Shown here one piece after another: positions 1,578 through 29,781 of a stretch of DNA of 31,103 nt. Under the pieces are notes generated by a model. It had not been told where the DNA came from. It worked only from the letters and a program-made list of their open reading frames with translations, and did no database searches. Numbering within the stretch: the stretch's first letter is position 1; each line of letters starts with the position of its first letter. The stretch comes from a virus, in the IMG/VR virus record IMGVR_UViG_3300044641_003539, positions 1-31,103 of that record; one strand, 5' to 3'. A program made the position numbers and the translations under genes.

Positions 1578-1602
1578 CTACAGGCTCGTAGCACTCATTG
1601 TG
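1578..1602 (-). promoter_or_regulatory. Late-gene element 1: CTAC-N6-GTAG upstream of tail fibre
   Basis: On the minus strand this reads CACAATGAGTGC immediately followed by CTACGAGCCTGTAG, and ends 15 nt before the fibre ATG. The same 25-bp block (22 of 25 identical) occurs at 16288-16312 before tail tube A. It lies in the 53-bp spacer between two late genes, where there is no Shine-Dalgarno sequence. Candidate phage promoter or 5'-leader element; function inferred only from repetition and position. Confidence 0.6.
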
Positions 1603-1615
1603 GCCGTAGAGCTGC

Positions 1616-4600
1616 TTACGGGCTAGTCACGATTGCCGCCTTGCGTTCAGCGCTCTCGATCGACTGAGTTTTTAGGCGCTCCGCCCTCAACGCCCGCATC
1701 TCCTCAGCAGCCGTGCTGTCAGAGGTTTCCATGCGCTCTCGGGCCAGGGCGGCGTAGTAGTCCCGCAGCTGGGCCAGCACCCATGGGCCGGGCTGCTCCC
1801 GATACACCGTTGCAGGCATGTCCTTCACCCGCGGGTCCGTAGTAGTCGCAGGGTTTGCCTCCCACCTCTTGAACTCAGAGCTGTTGATGACGTAGTTGCT
1901 TGCCTCAAACAATGTCTTGCCGTTTGTGGCGCGATCCAGTAGGTCGGACAGGTCAACCGGGATGCCAACGGTTTGCTCCTGGAAGCTGTTCTCGACCATG
2001 TAGTCGACCTTGCCCGGCACTCGGTACAGCGTCTTGCCTCCAAACAGCGGATGGTCGCTGTACTTCCCGCCACGGGTGAAGCCGACGTAATAGTTGAACT
2101 CCTTCTCGGCATCGCGGTCCAGGGGGACGCCGTGCATCCTGCCGGTCATCAGCTCGTCAGGCGGCTGCAGCAGTCCCAAGCGGTTGAGCGTGGAATAGAC
2201 CTTGTTCTCGGCGTTCCAGTGCATCGGCACGCCCGCCGGGTACTCGTTCTTGAAGATCCAGTCGTTCCAGGGCGTGATGTTGCGGCCTAGGTAGTCGGTC
2301 TCCTTGAGCGTGGCCCCAGCCAAGGCAGACAGCATTGGGCTGAAGTTGATCAGGAACGCCTGCAGGCCCTCCCGCATTTGCTCCAGCGGATCGTCGCGCC
2401 CGATCTGCTCCATCAGATAGGCATCGGTGGGGTTGAGCTTGCGGTTGCGCTGCACGGTGTCGGCGCCCAGGCCCAGCACGCCCTCCACGCTGCGCAGCGG
2501 ACCTGAGAAGGGGTTGACCTGGCCGTTGGCAATGAAGCCCGCCAGGCGCTGGAACGCTTCGGGGGTCCGCTCGGTCAACGCCTCGCTGAGCATCTGCAGG
2601 GAGCGGAAGCCGGTTTGACGCATGATCTGGCCGGTGCCGACCTGCATCAGCTGCCACCAGGTCTGCTGCATGTCCCATTTGGAGTGCATGCCAGTGACCA
2701 TGGCCTCCTTGAGGTCCTTCCACAGAAACAGGGTGTTGAGGACCGGCAGGCCGCCCAAGTTGAGCGGGATGCCAAACACGCTGTTCTCCCGATTGCCGGC
2801 GGTCTTCCAAGCGGCCCGCTTCTGCGCATCAAGCGGTGCGCTGCCGGTCAACTTGCCCATCTCGTTGTCGAGTGAGGCAAACATCGCCACCATGCCGCCA
2901 AACATCACCCACGCCGCCTGGGTGGCCGCCAGCAGCTGAGGGGGGATCTCCTCGCCAGCGCGGATCTTGCCAACGATGCGAGCCGTGTTGGCAATGGGCG
3001 GAGCGCCAAGGCTCATGTCCCACAGAGCCTGGTTCCATGGCGAACGCCAGAAGCTGATCAGCATGTCGCCATAGTCGTTCTTGCGAATCGGCCGCATGGC
3101 GTCATCGGCCAACTGGCCAATGCCCCCCTGGGGCCTGTTCTGCATGCGGGCGTACTGGGAAAAGTCCCACGACTTGCGGTTGCCGGGGTCGGCCAGCACA
3201 GGCACACCGACCTTCTCGGAGGCGATGTAGGCAGCAATCTGGTCGTTGCTGAACTCCTCCCCCAGGTCGTACTGCTTGCGAAAGTTGGCGATCTGCGCGT
3301 CGCTCGGCTCTGCCGTGTACAGCACGTCCTGCAGCTTCTGGTCGACGTACTGCCGGCGCTGAGCCCAGCTCCACTCCGGGCCGTCCTTAAAGGACTGGAT
3401 GAAGAAGTCGTTGGCCCGGTCGGTCATGTAGACCCGCAAGCCGGCCCGCTGGTCCACGGCGCCCAGCATCTGCAGGGAATCGGTGATGGGCAGCCGGATC
3501 TCGCGGCCAGCCATCTTGGACAGGGCCTTCTCCTGCAGGTAGTTGGTCAGCAGCTTTTCGCTAACCAACCACTTGTCCCGGATTTGGATAGGCAGTCGCT
3601 TGGCGTCCCACGGATCCGCCAGCACCTGCTGGGCGATTTTGTACTGCTCCTCAATCGGGATGGCGCCAGTGCTGACGCCAAAGGCATCAGGGTTGCCCGC
3701 AAAGGGCGCCTCAGCATTGAAGAAGCCCTTGCGCAGGGACTCCGACCACGACTGCTTGATGATCTCCTCTGCTCGCATTGCGGCTTCCGCCGCGGCCCTG
3801 GCGCCTTCGATGTTGCTCTTGAGCAGGTCGCGGTGGAATGACGTGGCCCCCTCCCGGATCAAGGGGCCGTTGCCTGCGGCTTTCTTGAGGCCTTCAGCGA
3901 TAAAGACCAGCTTCTGGCTCATGTAGTTCATCACCACCTGCGTCTTGGGGGCGAAAAGGATCGAGTCCTTGTAGTAGCCCCGGGCCTGCGCCTTCCAGTC
4001 CCAGCCCTTGTCGAGCTTGGCCAGCGGGTCGATGCCATCAACCTTGGCTGCATCAATCAGCTCAGTTAGCTCCAGCTGCCCGCTGGGCCCCTTGTTGGCT
4101 GCATCAACGACCTTGGCCGCGATGCTGTCCGGGCCCACCAGGTCCGCAGGCGTGGCGGCAATCAGCTCCTCTGCGATCTGGCCAACCTCCACCTTGGCCT
4201 CAGCTCCCGTCTGCTCCCAGATCGAGCCCGGCATCTCCAGGTCCTCGCCCATTACCCGCTGCCACTGCTGCAGCAGCTGACCAGAGCGGCGCTTGGCCAC
4301 CCGCAGCGAGCGGTGCGCAAACAACGCCTTGATGTAGGCATCAACGAACTCAGCCTTGGCCTCGCGGCTGGGAGGCAGGCCGGTCTCGCCGATGGTGTCC
4401 GCGATGTCCTGCATCTTGCTGATCACGTTGCTGCGCGTGATGTCGGCAAAGACCTGCGCCTTGGTGCCGTTGTTGAGGATCCCGAGGAAGGGAGCCACGT
4501 TCTGGGCAATGGCTTGGCCCAGCAGGTCCTTCTTGACCGCAATGCCGGCCTCCTCAAAGGCATCAAGCAGCCGGGCCTGAAACGCATCTTTGTCGTTGAT

Positions 4601-5005
4601 GGCGGTCACGACGTTGAAGTCGGATGGGGAATACTTGGCCCAGTCGCCGGTCAGTGCCTGCAGCATCGAGCCCAGCTGCACTGCGCTGTCGACGCCCATC
4701 CGGTCAACCATCTGGGCAAAGTTCTCAAACTCGCCGTCAGAGCCGATCGGCTTGCTGCGTGAGCCAGCGGCCCGTGCTGCCCATTCCTGCAGCCGCTCAG
4801 GGTCGACGGTCATGTCCCGCCACATCTGGTTGAAGTTGGTCTCCAGCTCCTGGCCCGTGGTGCGGTCGCGGAAAACAAAGTTCGTCGCGGGGTCGGGGTC
4901 CTCTGGGGGCCGCTGACTGTCCAGGACGTAGCGAGCCTTCTCGATGTCGCGCTTGCGCTGCTCAAGGGCCTGAATTTGTTGGAACAGGTCGTCGCAGTTA
5001 GCCAT
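1616..5005 (-). CDS. Giant internal virion / ejection protein 2 (gp16-like position, C-terminal type)
   Basis: 1129 aa, ATG at 5005, three bases after the stop of the upstream giant protein, so probably translated with it. It sits where T7 has gp16, the last internal core protein before the fibre. The N-terminus is charged and helical (residues 1-30, EQRKRDIEKAR). The body is mostly Ala/Glu/Gln-rich helix. A hydrophobic stretch at about 690-780 (AAWVMFGGMVAMFASL; FGIPLNLGGLPVLNTLFLW) resembles the membrane-interacting C-terminal part of large phage ejection proteins. No catalytic motif is recognised and no lytic transglycosylase signature is seen. Together with its neighbour it replaces the single ~1300-aa T7 gp16 with about 2600 residues. 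Role (genome ejection tube) is inferred from position and composition. Confidence 0.75.
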   Translation of the reverse strand: MANCDDLFQQIQALEQRKRDIEKARYVLDSQRPPEDPDPATNFVFRDRTTGQELETNFNQMWRDMTVDPERLQEWAARAAGSRSKPIGSDGEFENFAQMVDRMGVDSAVQLGSMLQALTGDWAKYSPSDFNVVTAINDKDAFQARLLDAFEEAGIAVKKDLLGQAIAQNVAPFLGILNNGTKAQVFADITRSNVISKMQDIADTIGETGLPPSREAKAEFVDAYIKALFAHRSLRVAKRRSGQLLQQWQRVMGEDLEMPGSIWEQTGAEAKVEVGQIAEELIAATPADLVGPDSIAAKVVDAANKGPSGQLELTELIDAAKVDGIDPLAKLDKGWDWKAQARGYYKDSILFAPKTQVVMNYMSQKLVFIAEGLKKAAGNGPLIREGATSFHRDLLKSNIEGARAAAEAAMRAEEIIKQSWSESLRKGFFNAEAPFAGNPDAFGVSTGAIPIEEQYKIAQQVLADPWDAKRLPIQIRDKWLVSEKLLTNYLQEKALSKMAGREIRLPITDSLQMLGAVDQRAGLRVYMTDRANDFFIQSFKDGPEWSWAQRRQYVDQKLQDVLYTAEPSDAQIANFRKQYDLGEEFSNDQIAAYIASEKVGVPVLADPGNRKSWDFSQYARMQNRPQGGIGQLADDAMRPIRKNDYGDMLISFWRSPWNQALWDMSLGAPPIANTARIVGKIRAGEEIPPQLLAATQAAWVMFGGMVAMFASLDNEMGKLTGSAPLDAQKRAAWKTAGNRENSVFGIPLNLGGLPVLNTLFLWKDLKEAMVTGMHSKWDMQQTWWQLMQVGTGQIMRQTGFRSLQMLSEALTERTPEAFQRLAGFIANGQVNPFSGPLRSVEGVLGLGADTVQRNRKLNPTDAYLMEQIGRDDPLEQMREGLQAFLINFSPMLSALAGATLKETDYLGRNITPWNDWIFKNEYPAGVPMHWNAENKVYSTLNRLGLLQPPDELMTGRMHGVPLDRDAEKEFNYYVGFTRGGKYSDHPLFGGKTLYRVPGKVDYMVENSFQEQTVGIPVDLSDLLDRATNGKTLFEASNYVINSSEFKRWEANPATTTDPRVKDMPATVYREQPGPWVLAQLRDYYAALARERMETSDSTAAEEMRALRAERLKTQSIESAERKAAIVTSP

Positions 5006-5008
5006 GGA

Positions 5009-8000
5009 TCAGCAGCCTCCAGAAAGTGCTTTGGACTTGAGCGCGGCTATCTGGGCATCGAGCCCGGCCACTTCATTGGTGATTTGCATTTGGACCCCCT
5101 CGTTGTCGGTAGTCCACTTGTCGAGAAACTCCATGCGGCTGGCCTGGTCCTTTGTGACCACCTCGCTGGCCGCATTGAACTCACGCTTGCGAGCAATGTC
5201 GCCCTCGTAGACCTGACGGAAGAAGTCCTCAGCTGACGTAAAGCCATTCCCCTTCCAGTAGTTGGTGAACCGCTCCAGGAGCTGCTGCATCTTGTCGAAG
5301 GCCCGCAGCACCTTTCCGGCAACATTTGCCGTCAGCGTGTTGCCCCACGACTTGCCGTCTTTTTTGGGCAGCGCGCTGTCTAAGGCCTTTACAAACTCCT
5401 CCTGGAACAGCTTGCCGTAGGGATCGCTGAACCCCTGCATCCTGATCTCTGCGTAGGTCTGATAGGCAACTGCCATCCGCTCGATGGTCGCTATCTCCAT
5501 ACGCTCCGGGATGCCGGAGTAGTCGAAGATCCGCTGGCGGCCAAAGGCGGTTTCCATCGCCTTCATCTCGCCCAAATTCATCAGGCCGAACTGCACCCGA
5601 TGGAAGGCTTCGTGGTGGGCGACGCTAACCAGCTCGTCTGGCGAAGCCTCCAGCATCCCCTGGATCACGATCAGGTCGTTGGTGACCTCATAGCGCCCGC
5701 CCTGCACTGAGGGCTTGCTGCCGCCACCCCATGCGGCATTGCGAGGCTTACGCCCCAGCGCGTCCTCAAAACCGATTGCGACGTGTTCGCCTGCAACGTC
5801 CCTGATGATCTGGTCAAGCGCTCCCTCCCAAATCTTTTTGTCATTTGACGGGATGCGCAGGTCGGCGTTGCCCAGCATTACGAACGCACGCTCTTTCTTC
5901 TGACGAATCGGATCAACGCTCTGCAGGACCATGCCTTCGCCGCCAAAGCCTTGATCTGCCACCTGCACGGTCATCTGCTTGCCCACCGGGGCGGCAGCTG
6001 AGCCGGTCTCGGTCTTGACTTGGGCCTTGATCTGCTGGTTGACCATGACGCCATGGCGGCGGACGGCAGCCACGTCAAAACCCGCCTGCTCCAGGGCAGC
6101 AACAAGACGGTCCTCGCCGGCGGATTTCTTGCTGGCGTTGCGCAGCATGTAAGCCGCACGGTCCAGGTCGTTCGCAAACTTCAGCGAGGCGCTGCCGTAG
6201 CGCGGGGCGGACTTGCTGAGATCGGCGGGGAATGTGAACGCAGGCTGCTGCGGCTGGTTCAGCAGTGGCGTTGATGTGTCGTACTGCCCCACGCCAAACA
6301 TGTCTTGCTGGCTGGTGTTCTGCTGGCCGATCGTCCGAGCAATGCGTGCCTGCTCCAGTTGGCGCTCGGCATTGCGCCATTCCCTTGCAAGGGTGTCGTC
6401 ACCGGCCTGCTCGGCCTCCACGCGCTTTTGCTTGGCGTAGGCGGCGCGCTCATCAAGGGTGACGGGATCCGGCTTGTCCCAGCCTTCCAGCATCCCGTTG
6501 GCCTTCTTCTCCTCAAAAGGCATGAGGTCGTAGCCCATGGCCTCGCGGTTGGCCCGCTCGATCTCAAACTGCCGCCGCGCATCTATCTGGGCGTACTCAG
6601 TGCCCAGACGGATCTCGTCCATGATTGCCTGCGCACCCGGGGATCCGGCCTGCAGACCATTGGCCTCAAGGTCCTTGGCAGCAACGGCAGGGTCGACCAA
6701 GGGTCGGGCTGGCAGCTCCGGGATCGAAGTGGCGCTCGGGCGGACCTCGCCGTTGGCGACGGCTTTTTGGATGACTTGGTTCTTTAATGCCTTGCGCTGG
6801 GCGTCAGTCAGGAGCTGTTGCTCGGGCGCAGCCTGCTCAACAGGAGCAACGGCCGGCGCCTCTACTGCCGCCGGAGGCATCGCCTCGGCGCCTGCTTCCA
6901 GCTGCTGGAGGATGCGCTTGACGATCGGCGCCGACTTAGCGCCATTGGCCACCTGGGCTGCCGCCTCGTTCAGCATCTGGCTGATGGGCGTGCCAGCTGC
7001 GTACTTGCTGGCGTCGAACTCACCCAGCACCGCCTGGGCAGTCCCTGCTGCATCTATCACCTGCTGGGCGTTCACCTCAGTGCCGCCCTTGTCAGCCAGC
7101 TGCTTGACGGAGCGGCCGCGGCCAACCCGCTTGAACAGGTTCTTGTTGCCAATCAACTCAGCGCGGATCTTGCCCGCCAGTTCCGCCTTGATGACGGTGG
7201 TGTCGATCTCCTCGTCGCCAAACAGGTTTTTCTGGTTGGCCTTGACCTTCGGTGCGCTGCTTGCCATCTGGGCCAGCTCGCTGAAGGCCCGGTCGGTCAT
7301 GTCCCGCCCTTGGGCGAGCTGATAGACGCGGTTCATCTTTTCGCCGTCCAACCCGCTGCCACCCAGCGCCAGCGCCCGCGGTAACGACAGGTCGCCATCA
7401 ATGGCTGACTGCAGCAGGTTGTCGGGGAGCTTGCTCAGCGCCAGGCCCTGGGTGCCAAGCCCAGAGCTCAGCGGGATGCCGGATGCCTCCAGCTGAGCGG
7501 CGTCTTGGATGCCCGCTTCACGGATGAACTTGGCTGCGTCAAATGCAGTGCCGCCACCAGAAGCGATGTTGCTGATGGCACCCATGGCACGGGCCTGCTC
7601 GGCAGTCCCAGCTGGCAGCTCCTCAACCCGAATAGAGGGGACTCCCAGCTCCTTGGCCTTGGCCAGGCGGTTGTGGCCATTGACCACAAAGGTCTGACCA
7701 TCGGCGGGATCAGTCCAGACTTGAACAACGCCCTCGGCGTCGGTGCTCCACTTGGAAACCCCCTGCAGGGAGTTGCCGATCTGCTGGCCCTGGGCGTTGA
7801 CGCCTTGCTTGAACTGGAAGCGGCCGGGGTCGACCTGAATGGCATTGACATCAAACAGCTGAACCCCGTCGCCGGCTCGGTTGGGCAGCAGCGCAATGCC
7901 CTCTTGCCCCAGGGCGTCAATGCCATCGAGCACGTCCTGGCGGGTGAACTCGCCGAAGTCACGGCCTGTGAGCTCACGAACCCGGTTGTAGAGCAGCGGG

Positions 8001-9442
8001 CCGTTGTCAGGGCTCGCCAGCGACATCAAGTTGGCGTGAGGCACTGCGGTGGACTCCCACTGCTGCCGCATGGGCACCATCGGGTCGGCAAGGTTCTCCG
8101 CTGGCATTGCCATGAACGCGGGGTCCAGGCCTTGCACCACGTCGAACTGGCTCTGCTCCTGCAGGTGCCGCTCAACCTCCGGCAGCACAGATCCCGAGCC
8201 AGTTGCCAGCTCCTGAAGGCGCTGGTCGTCCAGGCGGTTGACGCCCATGGCAATGGCATCAACCTCAGGCAGCGCCGGGTCAAACCAAGGGTCCTCCGCC
8301 GGATTGGCCTGCGGCAGCGCAGCCCCTGGGTCCTGCACAGCGCCACCGGGCGCCATGGGCTCAGACGGCACCGCAGCGGCGGCGGGCTCGCCGATCAGCT
8401 GGTCACGCGCCTGGGCCGGGGTTTGGGGCTGCGGTTCAGCTGCAGGCTGCGGAGGCTGCTGTTGGGCCTCCTCCCGGAAGCGGTATTCGCCAGGCGAAAC
8501 TTCCTCCTGGATGCCGGAAGCAACGGTCTCTTGGCGGGCAGCGCGAACCTCATCAGCCAGCCGCTGCTCGCGGAGGTTGCGGGCCACGTTCGGCAGGCCG
8601 GAAAGGCCAGAGACGGCCTTGCCAAGGCCAAGGAAGCCAAGGCCAGCTGCTACCTCCGCACCGGCGTTGGGCAGCAGGCTTTTGAGCGATGAGCTGAGGC
8701 GGTCGTCCTGCGGGGTGACGGCAAACGGGCTGTTGGGCGACACCGCGTTGGCGATGTTGCCGGACAGGTTGTTGCTGATCAGCGTTGTGATGAACGACTC
8801 GGTGCCGATACCGGCAACCCAGCGCGCCGCCTTGGCAGCAGCAGGACTGAAGAAACCAAAGGCCTGCGGGCCAACAATGCGAGAGGCGGCAACGCCACCC
8901 AAAACAGATGCCGATGCCAGAGCCGGAATGTCGCTGAACCAGGTTTTCTGGTAGGTCGACATTTCCTCCGGCAGCTTGGCGTCCATCGCCTTGGCCAGGG
9001 TGCGGTTGAACTCAACCAAGCCCCTCCCCACGGAAGTCGACGCGGGGTCAGCAGGCTTCCAGCCGTTTGTGGCGCGCTGCGCCAGGTTGACGGCAGCCAA
9101 TGCCGCATCGGTTGGCATCTGCACGGCAGCGCCATGCACCACCTGCCGCTCCAGGGGCGTGCTGTAGCGAACCCTTCCCTTGGGGTCTTGGTATTGCACC
9201 GGGGCAAACATGCTTCCCGGTGCCATCAACGGCATTGAGACCGTTCCTGTTGGCCTGTAGCCGGCGTTCATTTGGCCGGCTTGCTTGAGGAAATACTTGG
9301 CCTCGTTGGCAACGCCAGCCGGGGTTAGATACCACGACCAGTGGCGACCAGCAGGCTTGGCCTTGGCTTTGGCCGCAGGCTTCTCCGGGAGAACAGGCGT
9401 CGCCTCCAGGCCCGTGATTTGCCTACGCCGCTGCTCAGGCAT
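5009..9442 (-). CDS. Giant internal virion protein 1 with ParB-like domain and HEAFH motif
   Basis: About 1477 aa from the ATG at 9442 (MPEQRRRQ); an in-frame TTG at 9460 would add six residues. It follows the gp15-like gene and precedes giant protein 2. Visible segments: hydrophobic, Ala/Gly-rich stretches at about 165-280; Pro/Gln/Glu-rich linker at about 320-400; a ParB/sulfiredoxin-like segment at about 535-635 containing VVNGHNRLAKAKELG, close to the family's NGxHR core; a segment at about 1085-1120 (FANDLDRAAYML) like one common in phage polyvalent proteins; and a zincin-type HEAFH within VAHHEAFHRVQ near residue 1277. No transglycosylase Glu motif was found. Whether the ParB-like part cuts or binds DNA, and whether HEAFH binds zinc, is not shown. 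Likely packaged in the head and injected. Confidence 0.78.
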   Translation of the reverse strand: MPEQRRRQITGLEATPVLPEKPAAKAKAKPAGRHWSWYLTPAGVANEAKYFLKQAGQMNAGYRPTGTVSMPLMAPGSMFAPVQYQDPKGRVRYSTPLERQVVHGAAVQMPTDAALAAVNLAQRATNGWKPADPASTSVGRGLVEFNRTLAKAMDAKLPEEMSTYQKTWFSDIPALASASVLGGVAASRIVGPQAFGFFSPAAAKAARWVAGIGTESFITTLISNNLSGNIANAVSPNSPFAVTPQDDRLSSSLKSLLPNAGAEVAAGLGFLGLGKAVSGLSGLPNVARNLREQRLADEVRAARQETVASGIQEEVSPGEYRFREEAQQQPPQPAAEPQPQTPAQARDQLIGEPAAAAVPSEPMAPGGAVQDPGAALPQANPAEDPWFDPALPEVDAIAMGVNRLDDQRLQELATGSGSVLPEVERHLQEQSQFDVVQGLDPAFMAMPAENLADPMVPMRQQWESTAVPHANLMSLASPDNGPLLYNRVRELTGRDFGEFTRQDVLDGIDALGQEGIALLPNRAGDGVQLFDVNAIQVDPGRFQFKQGVNAQGQQIGNSLQGVSKWSTDAEGVVQVWTDPADGQTFVVNGHNRLAKAKELGVPSIRVEELPAGTAEQARAMGAISNIASGGGTAFDAAKFIREAGIQDAAQLEASGIPLSSGLGTQGLALSKLPDNLLQSAIDGDLSLPRALALGGSGLDGEKMNRVYQLAQGRDMTDRAFSELAQMASSAPKVKANQKNLFGDEEIDTTVIKAELAGKIRAELIGNKNLFKRVGRGRSVKQLADKGGTEVNAQQVIDAAGTAQAVLGEFDASKYAAGTPISQMLNEAAAQVANGAKSAPIVKRILQQLEAGAEAMPPAAVEAPAVAPVEQAAPEQQLLTDAQRKALKNQVIQKAVANGEVRPSATSIPELPARPLVDPAVAAKDLEANGLQAGSPGAQAIMDEIRLGTEYAQIDARRQFEIERANREAMGYDLMPFEEKKANGMLEGWDKPDPVTLDERAAYAKQKRVEAEQAGDDTLAREWRNAERQLEQARIARTIGQQNTSQQDMFGVGQYDTSTPLLNQPQQPAFTFPADLSKSAPRYGSASLKFANDLDRAAYMLRNASKKSAGEDRLVAALEQAGFDVAAVRRHGVMVNQQIKAQVKTETGSAAAPVGKQMTVQVADQGFGGEGMVLQSVDPIRQKKERAFVMLGNADLRIPSNDKKIWEGALDQIIRDVAGEHVAIGFEDALGRKPRNAAWGGGSKPSVQGGRYEVTNDLIVIQGMLEASPDELVSVAHHEAFHRVQFGLMNLGEMKAMETAFGRQRIFDYSGIPERMEIATIERMAVAYQTYAEIRMQGFSDPYGKLFQEEFVKALDSALPKKDGKSWGNTLTANVAGKVLRAFDKMQQLLERFTNYWKGNGFTSAEDFFRQVYEGDIARKREFNAASEVVTKDQASRMEFLDKWTTDNEGVQMQITNEVAGLDAQIAALKSKALSGGC

Positions 9443-9506
9443 TGATCTCTTGCCACTCAACTACCCCTATTCCACCGCACATGCGCGGAGTTGTCCGGGG
9501 TCGTAA

Positions 9507-11828: not shown

Positions 11829-11840
11829 GGCTCGCAGTGG

Positions 11841-15618: not shown

Positions 15619-16280
15619 CAGAGGCGCATCCCAGAACTGATCCGGCGGGTGGCAAGCCCAGAAGCCGGCGCATAGGTCGGGAAGGGCAGGTAGCCGCGGC
15701 TGCCGGTGAGCATGTTGGGCTGGTCAACCTGCTGCTCCATGCGCTCCAGCGCTGCCTGGGCGTCGCGCTCGTCCTGGGCGCTGTAGCGAATCAGCGAATC
15801 GGCGCCCAGCACACGGCTGGCAAAGACACGGGCAGAGCGGATGGTGACCCAGCGGTTGTAGGCCTCGGGCGCCTGGTCCCACGGCAGCAGCCAGATCACA
15901 TCGGCATACAGCGAGGTAATTGCCGCCTCAAGCGTGCTTGTGCGCTTGTCGCGGTCGTACACCACCTGCCCCCGCAGCTGGAAACGACCTGCGTAGTAGT
16001 AGGGGTCCGTGGAGAAACTCACCACGTTTGCCGGCACCGTGATCTGGTTGGTGGTGCTGTTTTTGACGAACTCGTAGTTGTACTCGCTATTCCAGCTCCA
16101 GCCTTTGATCTGACCTTCTTTGTGGAACTCCAGCAGGGTGCGCTCTGCAATGCGCGCATCCATGATCTGCTGGTTTTCCAGCGTGCTGACCGGCTGCTCG
16201 CCAATGTTTTCCAGCAGGACATTGACCGCATCCAGCAGCGTCGTCCTGCCTGGGGTGACCGACTGATTGGCGAGTCCCAT
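15618..16280 (-). CDS. Tail tubular protein A, T7 gp11-like
   Basis: 220 aa from the ATG at 16280 (MGLANQSVTPGRTTLLDAVN); T7 gp11 is 196 aa. An in-frame GTG at 16304 lies inside the CTAC-N6-GTAG block and is unlikely to be the start. Family features: LLDAVNVLLENIGEQPVSTLE near the N-terminus, ARIAERTLLEFHKEGQIKGWSWN, and the RYSAQDERDAQAALERME region near 180. Twelve copies in T7 form the adaptor ring between portal and nozzle. It is the first gene after the capsid terminator and is preceded by a repeated element 7 nt upstream. No clear Shine-Dalgarno sequence. Confidence 0.94.
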   Translation of the reverse strand: MGLANQSVTPGRTTLLDAVNVLLENIGEQPVSTLENQQIMDARIAERTLLEFHKEGQIKGWSWNSEYNYEFVKNSTTNQITVPANVVSFSTDPYYYAGRFQLRGQVVYDRDKRTSTLEAAITSLYADVIWLLPWDQAPEAYNRWVTIRSARVFASRVLGADSLIRYSAQDERDAQAALERMEQQVDQPNMLTGSRGYLPFPTYAPASGLATRRISSGMRL

Positions 16281-16287
16281 TTGACTT

Positions 16288-16312
16288 CTACGGCCTTGTA
16301 GCACTCATTGTG
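16288..16312 (-). promoter_or_regulatory. Late-gene element 2: CTAC-N6-GTAG upstream of tail tube A
   Basis: On the minus strand this reads CACAATGAGTGC, then CTACAAGGCCGTAG, ending 7 nt before the tail tube A ATG. It lies just downstream of the terminator after the capsid gene, where transcription would have to restart. 22 of 25 bases are shared with the element at 1578-1602. Candidate late promoter. Confidence 0.62.
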
Positions 16313-16322
16313 CTGGACAACG

Positions 16323-16349
16323 AAAAAAGGGGCCAGCATTGCCGGCCCC
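16323..16349 (-). terminator. Intrinsic terminator after the capsid gene
   Basis: On the minus strand GGGGCCGGC-AAT-GCTGGCCCC forms a 9-bp stem (one G-T pair) with a 3-nt loop, followed directly by six T. It starts 33 nt after the capsid stop codon. The position matches T-phi of T7, which lies just after gene 10. Confidence 0.9.
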
Positions 16350-16381
16350 CTGGGGTGAACACTCCGATGAACCCCGACGGC

Positions 16382-17419: not shown

Positions 17420-17524
17420 TTTTCTGGTATGCGAAGGGATTGAGTTGTTAGATCGCTCTCTCCTTCACCGTCGCAGGTTGTCCTCCTTGGAGGGCCCGCC
17501 GCTTAGGTGGCGTCTGGCAAAAAA
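17420..17524 (-). promoter_or_regulatory. Capsid gene leader (scaffold-capsid spacer)
   Basis: The largest spacer inside the structural cassette. On the minus strand it contains TTTTTT near the scaffold stop, CGCC-N8-GGCG and CCTCC-AA-GGAGG inverted repeats, and a GAAGGAGAG stretch about 45 nt before the capsid ATG. High-level expression control is plausible; nothing specific is recognised. Confidence 0.35.
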
Positions 17525-18382: not shown

Positions 18383-19995
18383 GCGGGTTGGTCTTCAGGG
18401 GGTTGTTCAGCCGCCATCTGCATGTCCTGCACGGTGGCGGCTGCAGTGGCGAGTTTTTGCGGGTCGGCCATGTTGGATTGCATGGCCTGCTGTGCCATGG
18501 CCATCTGCTGTTGCTGCTGTGCTTCAGCAGCCAGCTCCTCATCGGACTTCACCAGGCCGAGGATGTCGATGCCCATGGAGTACGCCAAGCGCTTGATCAG
18601 CTCAGGCGGCTTGACGTACCGCGACAGGCCCTCAGGCCCGATGGTGTTGCCAAGCGTGGTGGTGAAGCGCACCAGCTGCTCAAGGTCGTTGCCGCGGCCC
18701 ACAGCTGCCAGGCCAACGGTCATCACCGGCTTGACCAGCTCCTTGGGCATCTTCGGCACCTTGCCCTGGCGGGTCAGGATGTCGAGCTTGCGCGACACAT
18801 ACGGGACCTGGAACTCGGTCGTCAGGATTGAGTAGATCGAGCCCAGGCTGTTTTCGATCTGCAGCGCCTGCAGCCGCACTTCCTCAGCGGTGACCCGCTC
18901 AGCGTCCCGCATGTCGGCCAGCATGAACGCCTGCGCCAGGCGCGCCTCGATCTGCTGCTTGCCTTGCATGGCAACGCTCAGGTCGGAAGACTTCTGGACC
19001 TGCAGCGCCAACACGTCATTGGGATCACCCGTGACGAAAGAGCCGTTGGGCGCCCGGGCCAGATCAGCCGCTTTGGTGACGCCGCTGGGCTTGACCAGGA
19101 ACAGCACCTTGCTGCTGGCCAATGCACCTTCTGCAATCGCCTGGCACAGCGCCTCAACGGTCTGCAGGTCGGCGATGGCGGCGCTTTCGATGTAGCCAAC
19201 GCCATAGGGCTGGCCGTCGCAGCGTGTCATCCGCAGCGGCAGCCATGGGCTCACCTCTTTGGGTGCCTTGCCTTCGGTGCCGGGGATCTTCTTGCCCCGT
19301 ACCTCCTGGTGCCAATAGACGTAGCCGTTCTTCCAGCAAACGTAGGTGTAGAGCTTGACGGTCTTTTCCTTGCCCTGGGCGGTCAAATGCCGCTCGTGGT
19401 CAAGGATGCCGCGCAGCTCGTCGTCCTCCTCGTACAGCAGGTCCTGGATCTTCTTGGGCAGCTGCTGGATGGCCAGCTGCTCACAGGTCACCACCTCCAG
19501 CGGGTTGCCCATGGGGTCCCGGGAGACCACATAGCGGTTTAGATGAAAGACCCGCAGACCCTCCGAGGAGATGTAGAGCAGAGCGTTGCCCGAAACGATC
19601 AGGTGCAGCAGCGCCTCGTGAAACACCACGCGGTCGTTGCTGGCCTCGATCTCCCGCAACACCATGCGCTCGATCTTGCTGAGCGCTTCCTCTGTCGCGG
19701 ATTTCTGCTCCGGTGTGACGCCTTGCTTGGCCAGCTCGGCGTCATCCAGCGAAAAGCGGAAGAACTGCTGCGTGGGCGGCAGCAGGGCAAGCAGCATGCG
19801 GCTGGCCAGGTTCAAGACGCCGCGTGCGCCAATGCCATTCCACGGCACGGCATACGAGTCCTTGGAATTTTTGTCGGGCTCGTTGGTGTCGGGAATCAGG
19901 TACGGGATTGTCAGCCGTGCTGCAACCCGTGCGCGATCCAGGTAGTGGTCGCGGTCGCTTTCAAGCCGCCGGTAGCACTGTTCCGCTGATTCCAT
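18379..19995 (-). CDS. Portal (head-tail connector) protein, T7 gp8-like
   Basis: 538 aa, against 536 in T7. Conserved blocks: ERSE-like N-terminus CYRRLESDRDHYLDRARVAARLTIPYL, WNGIGARGVLNLASRMLLALLPP (about 53-75), HEALLHLIVSGNALLYI, and FHLNRYVVSRDPMGNPLEVV. The tail (500-538) is Gln/Met/Ala-rich, as usual for the disordered C-terminus. Twelve copies form the ring at the packaging vertex that binds TerL. It follows three small virion-type genes with a 3-bp gap and overlaps the scaffold gene. Confidence 0.95.
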   Translation of the reverse strand: MESAEQCYRRLESDRDHYLDRARVAARLTIPYLIPDTNEPDKNSKDSYAVPWNGIGARGVLNLASRMLLALLPPTQQFFRFSLDDAELAKQGVTPEQKSATEEALSKIERMVLREIEASNDRVVFHEALLHLIVSGNALLYISSEGLRVFHLNRYVVSRDPMGNPLEVVTCEQLAIQQLPKKIQDLLYEEDDELRGILDHERHLTAQGKEKTVKLYTYVCWKNGYVYWHQEVRGKKIPGTEGKAPKEVSPWLPLRMTRCDGQPYGVGYIESAAIADLQTVEALCQAIAEGALASSKVLFLVKPSGVTKAADLARAPNGSFVTGDPNDVLALQVQKSSDLSVAMQGKQQIEARLAQAFMLADMRDAERVTAEEVRLQALQIENSLGSIYSILTTEFQVPYVSRKLDILTRQGKVPKMPKELVKPVMTVGLAAVGRGNDLEQLVRFTTTLGNTIGPEGLSRYVKPPELIKRLAYSMGIDILGLVKSDEELAAEAQQQQQMAMAQQAMQSNMADPQKLATAAATVQDMQMAAEQPPEDQPA

Positions 19996-19998
19996 TGG

Positions 19999-20433
19999 TT
20001 ACACCGAGATGTTTGCGCCAGAACCGGCGCCATAGCTGCCTGACCCCATCCGCAGGCTTGCGGTTGTGGTCTTGGCGCCCTGCTGACGGGTGTTTTTGTC
20101 GTCCATGGCAGCGGTTGGCGCCTGTTTGGCCGGCTGTCGCGCCAGGATTTGCAGCGATTCCGACACCGCAGTGCCCCTGGCGCTGATGCCGGCCAGGCGC
20201 TGCCGCTGATCGGCTCCAAGCTGGGCCGCCTGGGCGTTTTGCCGCTGCTCGGCTTCGATTTGCTGCTGCTGCAGCGCTTGCAGTTGCGCTTGCTGGGCCG
20301 CGGCGGTTGCTTCACGCTCGCGGGCCAGGCGATCCAGCTCCCGCTGGCGCTCTTCGGCGATGCGTGACTGCCGATCACGCTCGCGCTGGGCTTCAGCGTC
20401 GATGTGTGCCTGTGGCCGTCCTCCTCCGCACAT
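19999..20433 (-). CDS. Small MC-GG...GSGxNI protein 3 (gp6.7/gp7.3-like)
   Basis: 144 aa. It starts MCGGGRPQ and ends with ASLRMGSGSYGAGSGANISV, so it shares both termini with the two genes upstream. The middle (about 12-90) is a strongly charged, Gln/Arg/Ala-rich helix (REREATAAAQQAQLQALQQQ), probably coiled coil. In T7 the two small virion proteins gp6.7 and gp7.3 are encoded just before portal gp8; from memory gp6.7 starts MCFSP and gp7.3 ends with a GGGINI-type tail. Position and termini therefore suggest a minor virion protein of head or tail. Function otherwise unknown. Met followed by Cys predicts an exposed N-terminal Cys after Met removal. Confidence 0.75.
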   Translation of the reverse strand: MCGGGRPQAHIDAEAQRERDRQSRIAEERQRELDRLAREREATAAAQQAQLQALQQQQIEAEQRQNAQAAQLGADQRQRLAGISARGTAVSESLQILARQPAKQAPTAAMDDKNTRQQGAKTTTASLRMGSGSYGAGSGANISV

Positions 20434-20435
20434 GG

Positions 20436-20837
20436 TCAGACTCCAATGTTGAGGCCAGTGCCAGCAGAAGCCGGCAGCGCAGCCCGACTAATCGACAGGT
20501 TGCTCTCGGGCTTCTTCTTCTTGACCGTCGCTGCAGTGGTTTTGGCCGCCTCAGGCGCCTCGGTCTGCGATGCAGAAATTGCATAGGTCGACGTTTGCTG
20601 CGCTGCAGACGCCGCCGCAGCTGCTGCTGCCTCGTTTTCGTACCGCTTCTGCAGATCAGCGGTCTCCTGGTTGGCTTTGTCGATCTGCATCTGCAGCTGG
20701 GACTGGAAATCCGACTGCTGCTTCTGCATTTGCGACTGATAAGCGCTCAGCGAGTCGCGGTTGCGCTGAATGTCGGCCTCGCTGGGGCCTCGATAAACGA
20801 CCTCAGGGGCTTGAGGGGAAGAACCGCCAATGCACAT
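20436..20837 (-). CDS. Small MC-GG...GTGLNI protein 2 (gp6.7/gp7.3-like)
   Basis: 133 aa, ATG at 20837 preceded by a perfect Shine-Dalgarno sequence (TTAGGAGGT). It starts MCIGGSSPQAPEV and ends with SNLSISRAALPASAGTGLNIGV. The middle (20-70) is a Gln/Asp/Glu-rich heptad-like helix, then an Ala run (EAAAAAAAASAA), then a basic KKKKPE patch. It is the middle copy of three tandem relatives. The C-terminal pattern L-x-I-x-R followed by G-(S/T)-G-L-N-I is the part most like T7 gp7.3. Minor virion or ejection protein by analogy. Confidence 0.78.
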   Translation of the reverse strand: MCIGGSSPQAPEVVYRGPSEADIQRNRDSLSAYQSQMQKQQSDFQSQLQMQIDKANQETADLQKRYENEAAAAAAASAAQQTSTYAISASQTEAPEAAKTTAATVKKKKPESNLSISRAALPASAGTGLNIGV

Positions 20838-20847
20838 GAGAGACCTC

Positions 20848-21258
20848 CTAAGCAGAAAGGGTGGTGATGTTCAGCCCAGAGCCGCCGCTATTGGCGACAG
20901 GCGCCGTGGATCGGCCAATCCGCAGCGCGCCTTTGCCCTTGCTGGTGTTGATGCCACGGGCAGCGCTGCCAACACGCGGCGCCTGGGCCGTGGGCTCCGG
21001 CGGCGGCGTGCCGATCAGCGTCGCCATGCGCATGGCCGCGGCATTGGTGTTTTCGGCCTGCAATTTGGCCTGCTCAGCGACCTGTGCAGCAACACGCTCC
21101 TGATTGCGCAGCGATGCAGTCAATTCCTGCTGCTTCTGCTGCGTTCCGCTGTTCATTGACTGCTCAATCGCAGCCTTCTGCAGCTGGAACTCGTTGTTGT
21201 AGGCGCTGTAGTCCGGCATCGTGATCGTCGCCGGGCTGCCTCCTCCTCCTGCGCACAT
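20848..21258 (-). CDS. Small MC-GG...GSGLNI protein 1 (gp6.7/gp7.3-like)
   Basis: 136 aa, ATG at 21258 overlapping the previous stop (TGATG). It starts MCAGGGGSPATITMPDYSAY and ends with GALRIGRSTAPVA, then NSGGSGLNITTLSA. The centre (25-85) is a Gln/Glu/Ala helix (QKQQELTASLRNQERVAAQ). Same two-ended signature as the next two genes but with a divergent middle, which suggests old duplication with the termini conserved for docking. No enzymatic motif. Confidence 0.77.
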   Translation of the reverse strand: MCAGGGGSPATITMPDYSAYNNEFQLQKAAIEQSMNSGTQQKQQELTASLRNQERVAAQVAEQAKLQAENTNAAAMRMATLIGTPPPEPTAQAPRVGSAARGINTSKGKGALRIGRSTAPVANSGGSGLNITTLSA

Positions 21259-21449
21259 CAGGGCACCTCCACGCCAAGCAGGCCTTGTTGCTGATCCTCC
21301 CGGTGCTTCTTCAGCCAGCGGACCACTGAGACCTGGCCGGCGCGAAACCAGACCTCTTTCTCCGTCATGTCCATGGACGGCGCCTGGTCGGGAAACTGCT
21401 CAGCCAAAAGGCCAACCATTTTCTCGTCAATGACGGGGACGTAGCCCAC
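21258..21449 (-). CDS. Small protein, frame probably broken at its N-terminus
   Basis: 63 aa from a GTG at 21449 (GYVPVIDEKMVGLLAEQFPDQ...). Upstream, in the frame of the endolysin and right after its stop, 19 codons (21502-21446) encode LGLNWLYGYAYYVYDPAEW, which looks coding (aromatic-rich, no stop) and would join naturally to GYVPVID if one G were added or a -1 slip occurred at AGTGGGC. No Shine-Dalgarno sequence supports the GTG. The intact protein would thus be about 82 aa. Possible causes are a sequencing error, a real mutation or programmed frameshifting. Function unknown. Confidence 0.6.
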   Translation of the reverse strand: MGYVPVIDEKMVGLLAEQFPDQAPSMDMTEKEVWFRAGQVSVVRWLKKHREDQQQGLLGVEVP

Positions 21450-21502
21450 TCTGCGGGGTCGTAGACGTAGTAAGCGTACCCATAAAGCCAGTTCAGGCCC
21501 AG

Positions 21503-22096
21503 CTACCGGCGTCTGGTGAAGATCGTGATCAGCTTTTTGCTGTAAAGCGGGTCCGTCGCATACCCCTCAGCCTGCAGAAGCCGGGCGCACTCCTCGGGTG
21601 TGGTCGCTCGATTGACCCCGCGATAGCCCTTGAAGTCCTTGTACCACCGATCGCACAGGTATCGGACGGCATGACCAAGGCTCGTGAAGTCCATAAAGGT
21701 GTCAACGATCTTGACCTCCTTGCCGCCATACACCTCGCTGGTCTTACACGGCGTTCCAGGGCCCTTCAGGCCAAACATGTTCCAGCGACCGGACGGATGA
21801 GCCCCGTAATTGCTCTCCAGGGCCCACTGAGCGGCCACAACCTGCGGAAAACGGGCGCCGTAGGCCGCGGCAGCAGCCTTCACACCCTCCCAGCTGTTGG
21901 CATACTCCCCCTCTGCCAGGGTTCGGGAGCGAAAAACTTGCAGCCACTCGGCTGATTCGTGCAATAACGCAGGGTCAACTGCTTTGATGTGTTCATACAG
22001 GAGGTTGATTCCTTCCTGCTGCTGTTGTTCAGCCCTGTACCACCGCCAACAATCACGCCATTTCTGCGGCGTGATCAGGCCGTCCTCCATCGTCAT
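21503..22096 (-). CDS. Endolysin: GH73-type N-acetylglucosaminidase (FlgJ-like)
   Basis: 197 aa, ATG at 22096 (a second ATG follows at 22090). The C-terminal 120 residues carry the GH73 pattern: FPQVVAAQWALESNYGAHPSG with the likely catalytic Glu at about 94, WNMFGLKG (105-112), FMDFTSLGHAVRYLCDRWY and the end motif EGYATDPLYSKKLITIF (177-193). It would hydrolyse the glycan strand of peptidoglycan. T7 instead uses an amidase (gp3.5). There is no signal peptide, so a holin or similar is needed for release. The first ~55 residues are a charged helical extension. A CTAC-N6-GTAG element lies 14 nt before the start and no Shine-Dalgarno sequence is seen. Confidence 0.87.
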   Translation of the reverse strand: MTMEDGLITPQKWRDCWRWYRAEQQQQEGINLLYEHIKAVDPALLHESAEWLQVFRSRTLAEGEYANSWEGVKAAAAAYGARFPQVVAAQWALESNYGAHPSGRWNMFGLKGPGTPCKTSEVYGGKEVKIVDTFMDFTSLGHAVRYLCDRWYKDFKGYRGVNRATTPEECARLLQAEGYATDPLYSKKLITIFTRRR

Positions 22097-22110
22097 AGTG
22101 GATTAGAGCT

Positions 22111-22124
22111 CTACACCCTTGTAG
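22111..22124 (-). promoter_or_regulatory. Element 3: CTAC-N6-GTAG between endolysin and TerS-like gene
   Basis: CTACACCCTTGTAG on plus, CTACAAGGGTGTAG on minus, within the 30-bp spacer between two divergent genes: 14 nt from the endolysin ATG (minus) and 2 nt from the TerS-like ATG (plus). The core is palindromic, so it could serve either gene. On the minus strand GCTACAAGG matches element 2. Confidence 0.55.
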
Positions 22125-22126
22125 CC

Positions 22127-22366
22127 ATGTCAGACCTGCAGCAGCAACTGAGCGAAATGCACGAGGAGCTGATCGCTCAAGTGCTTGATGACCTTAAAAA
22201 CGGTGATCGCAAGGCCCGAGCGGAAGCCATGCAGCTGCTCAAGCAGAACAACGTCACCTCCGTCGCCCAGGAAGGCAGCACGCTGCGCAAGCTGGCCGGC
22301 AAGCTCGACTTCTCCAGCATGGAAGACAAGGTGGTGCCGCTCAACCGCCAACGCGAAGCCGGCTGA
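22127..22366 (+). CDS. Probable terminase small subunit (T7 gp18-like), on the opposite strand
   Basis: 79 aa from the ATG at 22127 (MSDLQQQL). Like gp18-type small terminases it is short, with an N-terminal helix pair: MHEELIAQVLDDLKNGD, then AMQLLKQNNVTSV (the E-L-L-x-x-L-K-N-G and L-L-K-x-N-N-V pattern), then a basic segment LRKLAGKLDF and a polar tail. TerS binds the concatemer and loads TerL. It is the only plus-strand gene amid the late arm: divergent from endolysin (30-bp gap) and convergent with TerL, overlapping its 3' end by 26 bp. There is no Shine-Dalgarno sequence; the CTAC-N6-GTAG element abuts the start. The family call is by pattern and context, not proven. Confidence 0.68.
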   Translation: MSDLQQQLSEMHEELIAQVLDDLKNGDRKARAEAMQLLKQNNVTSVAQEGSTLRKLAGKLDFSSMEDKVVPLNRQREAG

Positions 22367-24104
22367 CCCCACCGTGGGCGCGATGGGAGGCCTTTGGCCG
22401 CCAGCCCAGCGCCAAGGCATCAATCGCAGCACCGCTTTCATCCAGCCAGGCGTCATACGCCTCCTGCTGCAGCTGGTCCGCACGCGCCCGTGCAGCCCGC
22501 TGCTGGTCTTGCGCCGCGGACTCCACAAAGAACCCACAGGCAATCGCCAGTGCATCCAAACGGTCGTCATGGCTAAGGCAGCCCTTCTCAGCGGTCAGGC
22601 GGCTGGCCTGGACAAACAGTGAGCGGCTGTAGCCGGTTTCCGGGTCTTCATCCAGTAGGCGGTAGTCCTGCTTGATGACACGGGTGGTGACCACCAGGCG
22701 GTGCTGCTGGATCAGCGGACCCAACGTGTCACACAGCCGCTGCTCCTTCCGCTGGTTGTGACGCACCTCCTCGATGGTGACGGGATGCTCCCGCATCAGG
22801 TGCGGCTTGAGCAGCGCCGAGAACATGCCGTCGCCCATGTTGGATTCAGCGACGACGTAGTTCACGTCCCACTTCTTGGCCACCTTGGCCAGGTACTGCA
22901 GCACCTCATCGGCATAACCCAGGGTGCTGCCGCCGGATTCCAGCAGGAACAGGTTGCCGTTCAGTTCGGCCACCACCGCCCAGGCCAGTTCATCGGCGCC
23001 GCGGCCAGCAGGGTCAATCGCCAGCACACACCGCCACTGCTCACTGCGGGAAATCCAGCCGTTCTGGAAGATCGGGCGGTGGTAGAAGCGATCAGACCCC
23101 ATCCCGACGCAGACCAGCTCCTGCAAACGCATGTCGGGCTGGTTCGACCACACCACCGTTTCCGGTAGTGCCGTGCCGTCGATGTCCATCACGATCAGGT
23201 CCCCCAGGCGCACGGGGAACTTGTCCAGCGTGGCCAGACGGGTGTTGAGCATGAACTGCAGCTCAAAGCTGGCCTTGGTCATGGCCGCTTTGCGTTGCAG
23301 GAGGTCTTCGTGCGAAAAACGCTCGGGATCTGTTGGCTCCCCCGTCAGGGCAGGGTCGGCTAAGACCTCAGCCTCCAGCACGGGGTCCAGATTCCCTTCA
23401 TACGACTCCAGCTCCTTGGGGTACAATGCCGGCCAATAACGAGCCGAATAGCTGCGCTCCCGCACCAGCCGCAGGTAAATGCTGGTTTCGGTGTGCGGTG
23501 TACCCAGGTACAGGATCTTCCGCGCTAACGGCTGCCCTTCATCGGGCTTGATGATCGACTGGATCTCCTCAACCGCATGCGCCACCCGCTCTTGCTTGAG
23601 TTGGGTGATCACATTGGCCAACGTCTCCACGTCATCAAGGATTGCGCAGGTACAACGCTGACCCGTGGTCTGCCCCATGATCCCCATCGAGCGCACCGAT
23701 GGAGACTGCTCCACCATCGTGGGGCCCACATCAAAGGCCACGTTGGAGAACCGGTTGCTGGGCCCTGGCATCAGGCACTGCAGGATGTCCACCTCGCCAA
23801 TGCAGCGCAGCATGAACGACGAAAAGTCCGTCGCCTTCACCGCCGTGGCTGACACCACCAGGATCTTCTCGCTGGGATCCACCCGCAGCCGCCACAACGC
23901 ATAAAACGACGCCAGGATCGACTTCCCCAGACCCCGGAACGCCACCGTCAACGACCGCTCGGGGCCGTTTTGCATCCAGTCACAGACACTGATCTGCTGA
24001 CGGGTGGGGCTATCCGCTAGCCCCAACTCCCGCAGCAAATAACAAGTGAAGTTCGGAAAGCTGTCCCGCAAGACATCCGGTAACGGCTCCCACAGCTCCT
24101 TCAC
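22341..24104 (-). CDS. Terminase large subunit, T7 gp19-like
   Basis: 587 aa from a GTG at 24104 that overlaps the previous stop (GTGA). ATPase domain: Walker A-like AFRGLGKS (about 55-62) and Walker B AILDDVE (154-160). Nuclease domain: VLAIDPAGRG with the acidic residue at about 364, and SHDDRLDAL with Asp at about 513-517. This is the gp19 layout; the enzyme packages DNA through the portal and cuts it. In T7 this gene is near the end of the genome; here it opens the structural arm. Its 3' end overlaps the TerS-like gene on the other strand. Confidence 0.95.
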   Translation of the reverse strand: MKELWEPLPDVLRDSFPNFTCYLLRELGLADSPTRQQISVCDWMQNGPERSLTVAFRGLGKSILASFYALWRLRVDPSEKILVVSATAVKATDFSSFMLRCIGEVDILQCLMPGPSNRFSNVAFDVGPTMVEQSPSVRSMGIMGQTTGQRCTCAILDDVETLANVITQLKQERVAHAVEEIQSIIKPDEGQPLARKILYLGTPHTETSIYLRLVRERSYSARYWPALYPKELESYEGNLDPVLEAEVLADPALTGEPTDPERFSHEDLLQRKAAMTKASFELQFMLNTRLATLDKFPVRLGDLIVMDIDGTALPETVVWSNQPDMRLQELVCVGMGSDRFYHRPIFQNGWISRSEQWRCVLAIDPAGRGADELAWAVVAELNGNLFLLESGGSTLGYADEVLQYLAKVAKKWDVNYVVAESNMGDGMFSALLKPHLMREHPVTIEEVRHNQRKEQRLCDTLGPLIQQHRLVVTTRVIKQDYRLLDEDPETGYSRSLFVQASRLTAEKGCLSHDDRLDALAIACGFFVESAAQDQQRAARARADQLQQEAYDAWLDESGAAIDALALGWRPKASHRAHGGVSRLRVGG

Positions 24105-24280
24105 TTCTTCTTCTTGGCTGGCATCTCACATGCACCAGCAGCCGGCTCCTCAGCAGCAGGCTGGCTAAAGCCCTCGACGTAATACCCCTCAGGCACCACA
24201 CCAGCCAACGTCTCCTCCTTCACAACCGATGCACCCACTAACCCCAACTCCAACCGTTGGGTATTCGTCAGATAAGGCAT
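24101..24280 (-). CDS. Small hypothetical protein before TerL
   Basis: 59 aa from the ATG at 24280 (MPYLTNTQRLELGLVGASVV), chosen for the Shine-Dalgarno TGGAGGG 4 nt upstream; the frame extends to 24388 but that part looks non-coding. It ends in a basic KKKK tail whose stop overlaps the TerL start codon. The overlap and the order suggest a partner of TerL, but it has no known domain. The middle is acidic (QPAAEEPAAGACE). Confidence 0.65.
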   Translation of the reverse strand: MPYLTNTQRLELGLVGASVVKEETLAGVVPEGYYVEGFSQPAAEEPAAGACEMPAKKKK

Positions 24281-24412
24281 AAACCCTCCATCAGCACACC
24301 GCAGTCTGCCGACAAGGGGACCGCCCAGCCAGACGAACTGGCAGACATGTCCCCGCCCCCACCCAGTCGACCACGACCAAGCGACCAACCTGCAGGTAGG
24401 AGCAGACCAATC
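24281..24412. other. Short spacer between regulator and the 59-aa gene
   Basis: 132 bp. Contains small inverted repeats (for example GCCAG-TTCGT-CTGGC on minus) and one plus-strand ACCACGACC at 24370-24378. No gene is supported. Confidence 0.4.
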
Positions 24413-24841
24413 CTAATCCTCGTCTCCCGTCAGCCCACCAGGTGTGCGCAACATCTTCGCCCGCACACTCGGACGTAACGCCTCACCCATCACATCAATC
24501 GCTACCCGCTGCGCTTCCACCTGACTCGGATGCAACACCCGGTAAATCCGCTTCCGTGATCCGCCATGCCAGCTGCTGGTCAAACCCAGACAGCTGATCA
24601 ACCCGTCATCCAGCAGCAGGTCCACAGCCCTCAACACCGTCGCCTTCCCCAAACCACAGACATCCGCCAACGCCTTGTGGCTCATCTCCGTCGTCCCCCC
24701 GCACTCCCCACGCTGGTCATGCCACGCCGCCTCCCACAACACCCCATACACCAACCCACACTCCTTCCCCAGCGCACACGCCTCCCGCATCAACGGACAG
24801 GACCCATCCAATCGAACAGCCAAGGGTTCCAGGCAGAACAC
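24413..24841 (-). CDS. Winged helix-turn-helix regulator
   Basis: 142 aa from a GTG at 24841; an ATG at 24790 is an alternative. Residues about 53-90 form a helix-turn-helix: MSHKALADVCGLGKATVLRAVDLLLDDGLI, followed by a wing-like segment with GGSRKRIYRVLHP. This is the GntR/IclR/MarR style of winged helix, in which the second helix (GKATVLRAVDLL) reads DNA. It is the first minus-strand gene next to the central control region. Direct repeats ACAGATATAAGAAGG flank its upstream region and one overlaps its start, so self-regulation is plausible. No Shine-Dalgarno sequence; a CTAC-N6-GTAG element lies 16 nt upstream. Confidence 0.75.
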   Translation of the reverse strand: MFCLEPLAVRLDGSCPLMREACALGKECGLVYGVLWEAAWHDQRGECGGTTEMSHKALADVCGLGKATVLRAVDLLLDDGLISCLGLTSSWHGGSRKRIYRVLHPSQVEAQRVAIDVMGEALRPSVRAKMLRTPGGLTGDED

Positions 24842-24938
24842 AGATATAAGAAGGACGCTACACCCCCGTAGTCCAATCCCACCTCTTACCCCGATAAAAC
24901 CCTCCCAACCTCCTACACAGAAGACAGATATAAGAAGG
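24840..24938. repeat. Direct repeat pair ACAGATATAAGAAGG (24840-24854 and 24924-24938)
   Basis: Two perfect 15-bp copies 84 bp apart, start to start. The first overlaps the GTG start of the minus-strand regulator. Read on plus, TATA followed by purines (AAGAAGG) looks like a single-subunit RNA polymerase start region; SP6 promoters end ACACTATAGAAGAAG. Read on minus they could be operators. Function not established. Confidence 0.65.
24858..24871 (-). promoter_or_regulatory. Element 4: CTAC-N6-GTAG upstream of the winged-helix regulator
   Basis: CTACACCCCCGTAG on plus, CTACGGGGGTGTAG on minus, 16 nt upstream of the GTG start of the regulator. Fourth copy of the palindrome; close to element 3 (CTACACCC shared). 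Confidence 0.5.
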
Positions 24939-25008
24939 GGCCCGCGTAACCGCCCTCAACACCCCTGCCTCACCCCGCCATCACCCGCGCCCTGCCGGCC
25001 ACAACGCC

Positions 25009-25211: not shown

Positions 25212-25318
25212 CGGGCCCTGCTGGCGGTGGCTGCAGGGGCACCAGGGCCAACGCTGGCGGCCGCCGGGGGCGGCGCAGGGATGGGCACTGACGCCCGCGC
25301 CCTCAGTTACCCGCAGGT

Positions 25319-25779: not shown

Positions 25780-25782
25780 GCC

Positions 25783-29659: not shown

Positions 29660-29692
29660 ACATAGGCTTTACAGGGCCGTAGAGCAAATCAC

Positions 29693-29716
29693 AAGCCTGC
29701 AGCAGCAGGCTTTTTT
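29693..29716 (+). terminator. Intrinsic terminator after integrase
   Basis: AAGCCTGC-AGCA-GCAGGCTT forms an 8-bp stem with a 4-nt loop, continuing into a run of T to 29716. It is 95 bp after the integrase stop and 66 bp before the RNA polymerase start, so the two genes should have separate transcripts. Confidence 0.85.
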
Positions 29717-29781
29717 CTTGCAGATACGGCTCCGCGGTACTCACAGTGGGCTTGCAACACACAATTTGCAATTTGCAAGCG

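Follow-up and report, generated by a model that had tools for sequence, protein, structure and literature searches.

CTAC-N6-GTAG sites in a cyanopodovirus-like phage genome as candidate promoters of its own single-subunit RNA polymerase

Background

In a virus record of IMG/VR (IMGVR_UViG_3300044641_003539; the whole stretch analyzed here, 31,103 nucleotides, is termed the window) several minus-strand genes are preceded by a short gapped palindrome, CTAC-N6-GTAG, which raises the question of what recognizes it. A sequence-only reading of the window had left two answers standing, a promoter of the phage polymerase or an RNA element for translation. Our comparisons indirectly favor the former: orthologous placement, clade-specific forms, position at the heads of late gene blocks and before the polymerase gene, an asymmetric consensus and published precedent all point toward it, and we estimate at about 0.7 the probability that a T7-type single-subunit RNA polymerase, encoded by the phage itself, uses the sites as its promoters. 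The RNA element, in contrast, is not supported.

Results

Four exact sites and a fifth in the window

A scan with the exact pattern recovered four matches in all 31,103 bases and none elsewhere, at the very positions given by the sequence-only reading (1578-1591, 16288-16301, 22111-22124 and 24858-24871), so that the observation itself is confirmed. Their number is more surprising than had been thought: the earlier chance figure of about 0.5 assumed even base composition and is too high, as 100 dinucleotide shuffles give 0.07 per window (largest 1). Because the pattern had been chosen post hoc, we ranked all palindromes with 4-bp arms and gaps of 3-10. CTAC-N6-GTAG comes third by Poisson surprise (6.2), a value reached by no palindrome in 40 dinucleotide shuffles (largest 5.0). 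Its bias toward spacers (4/4) is the strongest of the window's palindromes, at 5e-05, although correcting for some 2,000 patterns leaves little of this; by the same measure it ranks first also in the relatives G001, AP013546 and G016 and second in G002. The same ranking in HTVC019P, P-SSP7 and Pasto produced no motif below 1e-3.

All four sites lie in spacers 7-16 nt ahead of a start codon, as previously described, and none is inside a gene, so that the window passes the check set by the earlier reading, for which many copies inside coding sequence would have spoken against it; in relatives a few copies are intragenic (2/6 in G001 and 2/6, by annotated genes, in AP013546). On the minus strand, the candidate promoter core CTACGAGCCTGTAG (1578..1591) stands 15 nt from the fibre start at 1562, and CTACAAGGCCGTAG (16288..16301) 7 nt from the ATG of tail tube A at 16280. 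The latter, recovered by exact scan, weight matrix and the upstream regions of relatives, follows a terminator-like hairpin with a T run behind the capsid gene (16327..16351, minus strand), which bears out the earlier placement of the second site after a capsid terminator. Two further features had escaped the earlier reading. One is a 15-mer, CACAATGAGTGCTAC, common to the fibre and tail-tube-A sites, both of which also carry the identical upstream element CACAATGAGTG (1592..1602 and 16302..16312, minus strand). The other is a fifth site, TTACAGGGCCGTAG (29669..29682, plus strand), with one mismatch to CTAC-N6-GTAG, between the integrase and RNA polymerase genes. The endolysin core CTACAAGGGTGTAG (22111..22124, minus strand) lies 14 nt from the start at 22096 of a glucosaminidase-type enzyme (PF01832), with an ortholog in G002 and a TTAC..GTAG form in G001. 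The core CTACGGGGGTGTAG (24858..24871, minus strand as supposed), also orthologous in G002, lies 16 nt from the start at 24841 of a putative regulator whose winged-helix matches fall below cut-offs. The starts behind the four exact sites have at most three matching Shine-Dalgarno bases, as had been remarked, but this holds equally for 7 of 12 other genes checked.

We trained a weight matrix on 37 sites from other genomes, none of them from the window. If each of the five sites is scored in its better direction, all five rank above every other window position; the next-best place, which is coding, reaches 15.1, and the top score among 30 shuffles is 16.5. No score above that shuffle level (16.5) occurs in the early region 24,872-29,668. 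The direction of the regulator site is uncertain, since it scores 18.3 on the plus strand versus 13.8 in the supposed minus direction, the latter below the coding place just mentioned. As a separate observation, CTAC-N6-GCAG occurs at 21451-21464 (minus strand) in the spacer directly before the GTG of the frame 21258-21449; the same or a similar sequence is found in G001 and G016, and it is absent from the top matrix matches.

The polymerase end of the window

The plus strand at this end encodes a MarR-like protein (28187..28507; PF12802, 27.6 bits against a cut-off of 27, beside the integrase in relatives too), a tyrosine integrase (28548..29597; PF00589) and the N-terminal part of a single-subunit RNA polymerase (29746..31101; PF14700) cut by the record end. 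The genome encodes this polymerase, the presumed cognate enzyme, beside the fifth site. In G001, AP013546 and S-SRP02 the enzyme is complete, with both PF00940 and PF14700, and a scan of genome contigs recovered six polymerase relatives and nothing on transcription. Past the fifth site, and still ahead of the polymerase gene, comes a terminator-like hairpin (29693..29712, plus strand). With this order at 29669-29712 of site, terminator and then gene, read-through or regulated termination may matter. Past this terminator, at the start of the polymerase frame (29751-29789), there are several TTGCAA repeats that could be binding sites of a regulator. Ahead of its polymerase gene at 27282 (minus strand; L015), AP013546 carries CTGCATTGCCGCAG and directly after it AGCAA; the window's counterpart is TTACAGGGCCGTAGAGCAA. 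AP013546 is thus a group-A genome with a group-E type core at this place.

A wider, asymmetric element in the relatives

Megablast of bases 1-25,000 returned two phage records, both Autographiviridae: AP013546, which is Oinezvirus S37C6 (76.5% over 12%), and S-SRP02 (72.7% over 13%). The near relative G002 has exactly four CTAC-N6-GTAG, all of them orthologous to sites of the window, and G001 and AP013546 have six each, with the tail-tube-A and fibre sites orthologous in both. The scan of S-SRP02 for CTAC-N6-GTAG found none; it instead has CTGC-N6-GGAG at tail tube A and fibre. Among the tail-tube-A upstream regions of the best 80 of 198 IMG/VR relatives, CTAC-N6-GTAG is present in 22 and a broader element in 79. 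This element is found at equivalent places across the wider lineage and has roughly the form TANMAT-N4/5-CWRC-N6-GNAR. Scored as (C/T)ANMAT-N4-6-(C/T)(T/A)(A/G)C-N6-G(T/C/G)AN, it was recovered from 107 of the 120 regions upstream of tail tube A and fibre, whereas mononucleotide shuffles give 0.22; in this comparison the regions are redundant and the pattern was written after most had been seen. The 13 regions without it include that of tail tube A in AP013548. A motif search that was given no motif placed CTAC-N6-GTAG among its leading models in group A; among the matches listed for group E it yielded no readable motif.

Among 49 distinct elements the two halves are complementary in 19 and non-complementary in 30, with eleven different combinations; hence the palindrome is the form of some clades rather than a conserved feature. 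The spacer-bias ranking had suggested the palindrome as the functional unit, a candidate that these 30 elements undo. Given the TANMAT upstream and the independent variation of the two halves, the element is asymmetric, with a defined direction across the lineage, whereas within group A alone its direction is ambiguous. Some symmetry is nonetheless visible. Among 41 distinct sites of groups A-D, selected by pattern, preferences are mirrored outside the fixed letters (R in 38/41 at -9 and Y in 37/41 at -4; C once at -14 and G twice at +2), and the flanks are weakly symmetric (r 0.43, reached by 3.7% of 5,000 permutations). The purine after GTA in these sites is G in 25 and A in 16, the only two letters that the pattern allowed.

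Discussion

What reads the element?

A promoter of the phage polymerase fits the sites because of both their placement, after the capsid terminator and before fibre, endolysin and polymerase, and the GTA-purine end. Several copies per genome stand at the heads of middle and late units, in the window at fibre, tail tube A, endolysin, regulator and polymerase. The early plus-strand genes would be read first by the host polymerase. The phage enzyme would then recognize CTAC-N6-GTA|R, start at the purine after GTA, and read fibre, tail tube A, endolysin, probably the regulator (if the supposed direction of that site is right) and its own gene. Transcription would restart at tail tube A after the capsid terminator, and TANMAT, which begins 24 nt before the start purine, may strengthen the tail-tube-A and fibre promoters. 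Several features sit poorly with this reading: mirrored preferences and weak flank symmetry are unexpected for a monomeric polymerase; the distance from where TANMAT begins to the end of the core, 23 nt, exceeds the -17 to -1 span of T7; a simple promoter at the fifth site is hard to square with the terminator that follows it ahead of the polymerase gene; and the supposed direction of the regulator site, the 13 regions without the element and the group-E copies inside genes (79 of 109 strand matches to a CTGC-N6-GCAG-like sequence in that group) also weigh against it. By eye the reverse strand looks similar to the T7 promoter, a likeness that we rejected because such a promoter would drive antisense transcription.

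The same symmetry is what one would expect if the sites served purely as operators of a phage regulator that binds as a dimer, the MarR-like protein being the likeliest candidate, with the polymerase promoters elsewhere. The half-sites are about one helical turn apart. In group E both halves have changed, to CTGC/GCAG, at several sites, and the MarR recognition helix there differs (NSTVSR or NSSVSR versus NASASR); shared ancestry confounds this co-change. Of the 67 polymerase loci examined, 58 gave a MarR match, and several of the nine that did not are at contig ends. In AP013548 the 350 nt upstream of the MarR gene hold three TGCA-N4-TGCA sites. Against this, most distinct elements are non-palindromic, none of the window's sites is ahead of MarR, and no other recurrent motif that could be a polymerase promoter was found in group A. 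Further, G022, G023, G024 and G027 have a different palindrome, CTAG-N8-CTAG, at the MarR and ssb starts, with CTGC or CTAC-N6-GGAT as their tail-tube-A element. As this palindrome is distinct, and the halves of most elements are non-complementary, the lineage element is asymmetric and separable from a likely MarR operator, and we regard operators alone as an unlikely explanation. The polymerase promoter could also double as the operator of a MarR-like dimer: the monomeric polymerase would read it during lysis, and MarR would occupy it during lysogeny, a possibility that we hold to be doubtful. If it were so, all phage promoters could be shut off together by one repressor, and the near-symmetric core of groups A and E together with the parallel change in MarR helix and half-sites would be its trace; the TGCA-N4-TGCA sites of AP013548 would also suit it.

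TANMAT resembles a sigma-70 -10 hexamer, and ahead of tail tube A and fibre no conserved part lies further upstream, which would suit host-type promoters in which the CTAC..GTAG part lies downstream of the start. But TANMAT is missing at the endolysin, regulator and polymerase sites, no sigma-70 promoter containing a -35 was found in the two regions scanned, and in T7-like phages it is normally the phage enzyme that transcribes the late genes, all of which makes host promoters improbable. The other half of the sequence-only reading, a hairpin at the 5' end of the message that helps translation, takes its appeal from the ability of CUAC and GUAG to pair and from the closeness of the sites to starts with poor Shine-Dalgarno sequences. 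This pairing is present in the predicted fold of only 1 of 5 sites, 27 of the 49 distinct elements (counted by eye) cannot make all four pairs even with G-U included, and for the sites listed in relatives the nearest downstream start is anywhere between 0 and 92 nt away. The folds and the half-sites thus speak against a cis-acting hairpin with kept pairing and compensatory changes, and we consider an RNA element very improbable.

Published single-subunit polymerase systems

Promoters with some of the same features have been described for other single-subunit polymerases. Those of Syn5, ATTGGGCACCCGTAA, and KP34, TAATGTTACAGGAGTA (PMC3950665, PMC6834552, PMC11617373), are like the window's sites in being short and in having GTA or GTAA as their last bases ahead of the start, and differ in that they are 15-16 bp long, contain no CTAC-N6-GTAG and are not palindromic in the same way. 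The in vitro tested promoter of the Cronobacter phage Dev-CD-23823, AATGTATACCCCTATATACAC, with its transcription start at A, is likewise an N6-gapped palindrome, in its case GTATA-N6-TATAC, begins with AATG as a further point of likeness, and belongs to a single-subunit polymerase (PMC12272871). In that genome the core recurs at six places with at most two mismatches, four of which hold the perfect GTATA-N6-TATAC, and the 48 annotated features name no MarR or integrase; the promoter of such an enzyme can therefore look palindromic without a lysogeny regulator. The parallel has its bounds, as the Dev-CD-23823 sequence is another one, its AATG is closer to the core, the phage belongs to Melnykvirinae, and its promoter has been tested in vitro, whereas the window's sites are known from sequence.

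LUZ100 offers a comparison of gene order and promoter placement. Its description (PMC10134795) reports eight phage promoters, one mapped before the polymerase, and the authors suggest MarR repression at the polymerase promoter. Like the window, this phage is T7-like, with the order MarR, integrase, polymerase, a promoter before the polymerase, and a promoter and terminator at the capsid gene; unlike it, LUZ100 infects Pseudomonas, and its terminator directly follows the integrase, whereas in the window the site precedes the terminator. Among the matches listed in a full-text literature search, which left most subscription journals outside its scope, no description of CTAC-N6-GTAG was found, and the main text of the S-SRP02 paper does not contain the word promoter.

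Implications and further observations

The sites would amount to a predicted promoter code for a lineage of cyanopodovirus-like phages that are for the most part uncultured; S-SRP02 is the one relative in culture, and Oinezvirus and Nohivirus are the named genera. Such a code would split the genome into early genes without the sites and middle and late genes with them, point to polymerase-promoter pairs to try in vitro, and open to experiment the question of how T7-like phages that carry an integrase hold their polymerase in check.

The CTAG-N8-CTAG palindrome of G022, G023, G024 and G027 (loci L249-L257 and L263-L265) is repeated as two overlapping pairs where the MarR-like gene begins, with two more at the ssb start, lies in spacers in 4/4 cases per genome, and is a candidate MarR operator. 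In G017 (4919-5062, L237) only a short MarR-like stretch is readable, and the tail-tube-A element is still CTGC-N6-GGAT. Finally, a variant, ATAC-N6-GTAA, whose final A is also the first base of an ATG start codon, occurs in G001 (7941-7954, L033), G002 (36143-36156) and G016 (2748-2761); if it is a promoter, the message made from it would be leaderless.
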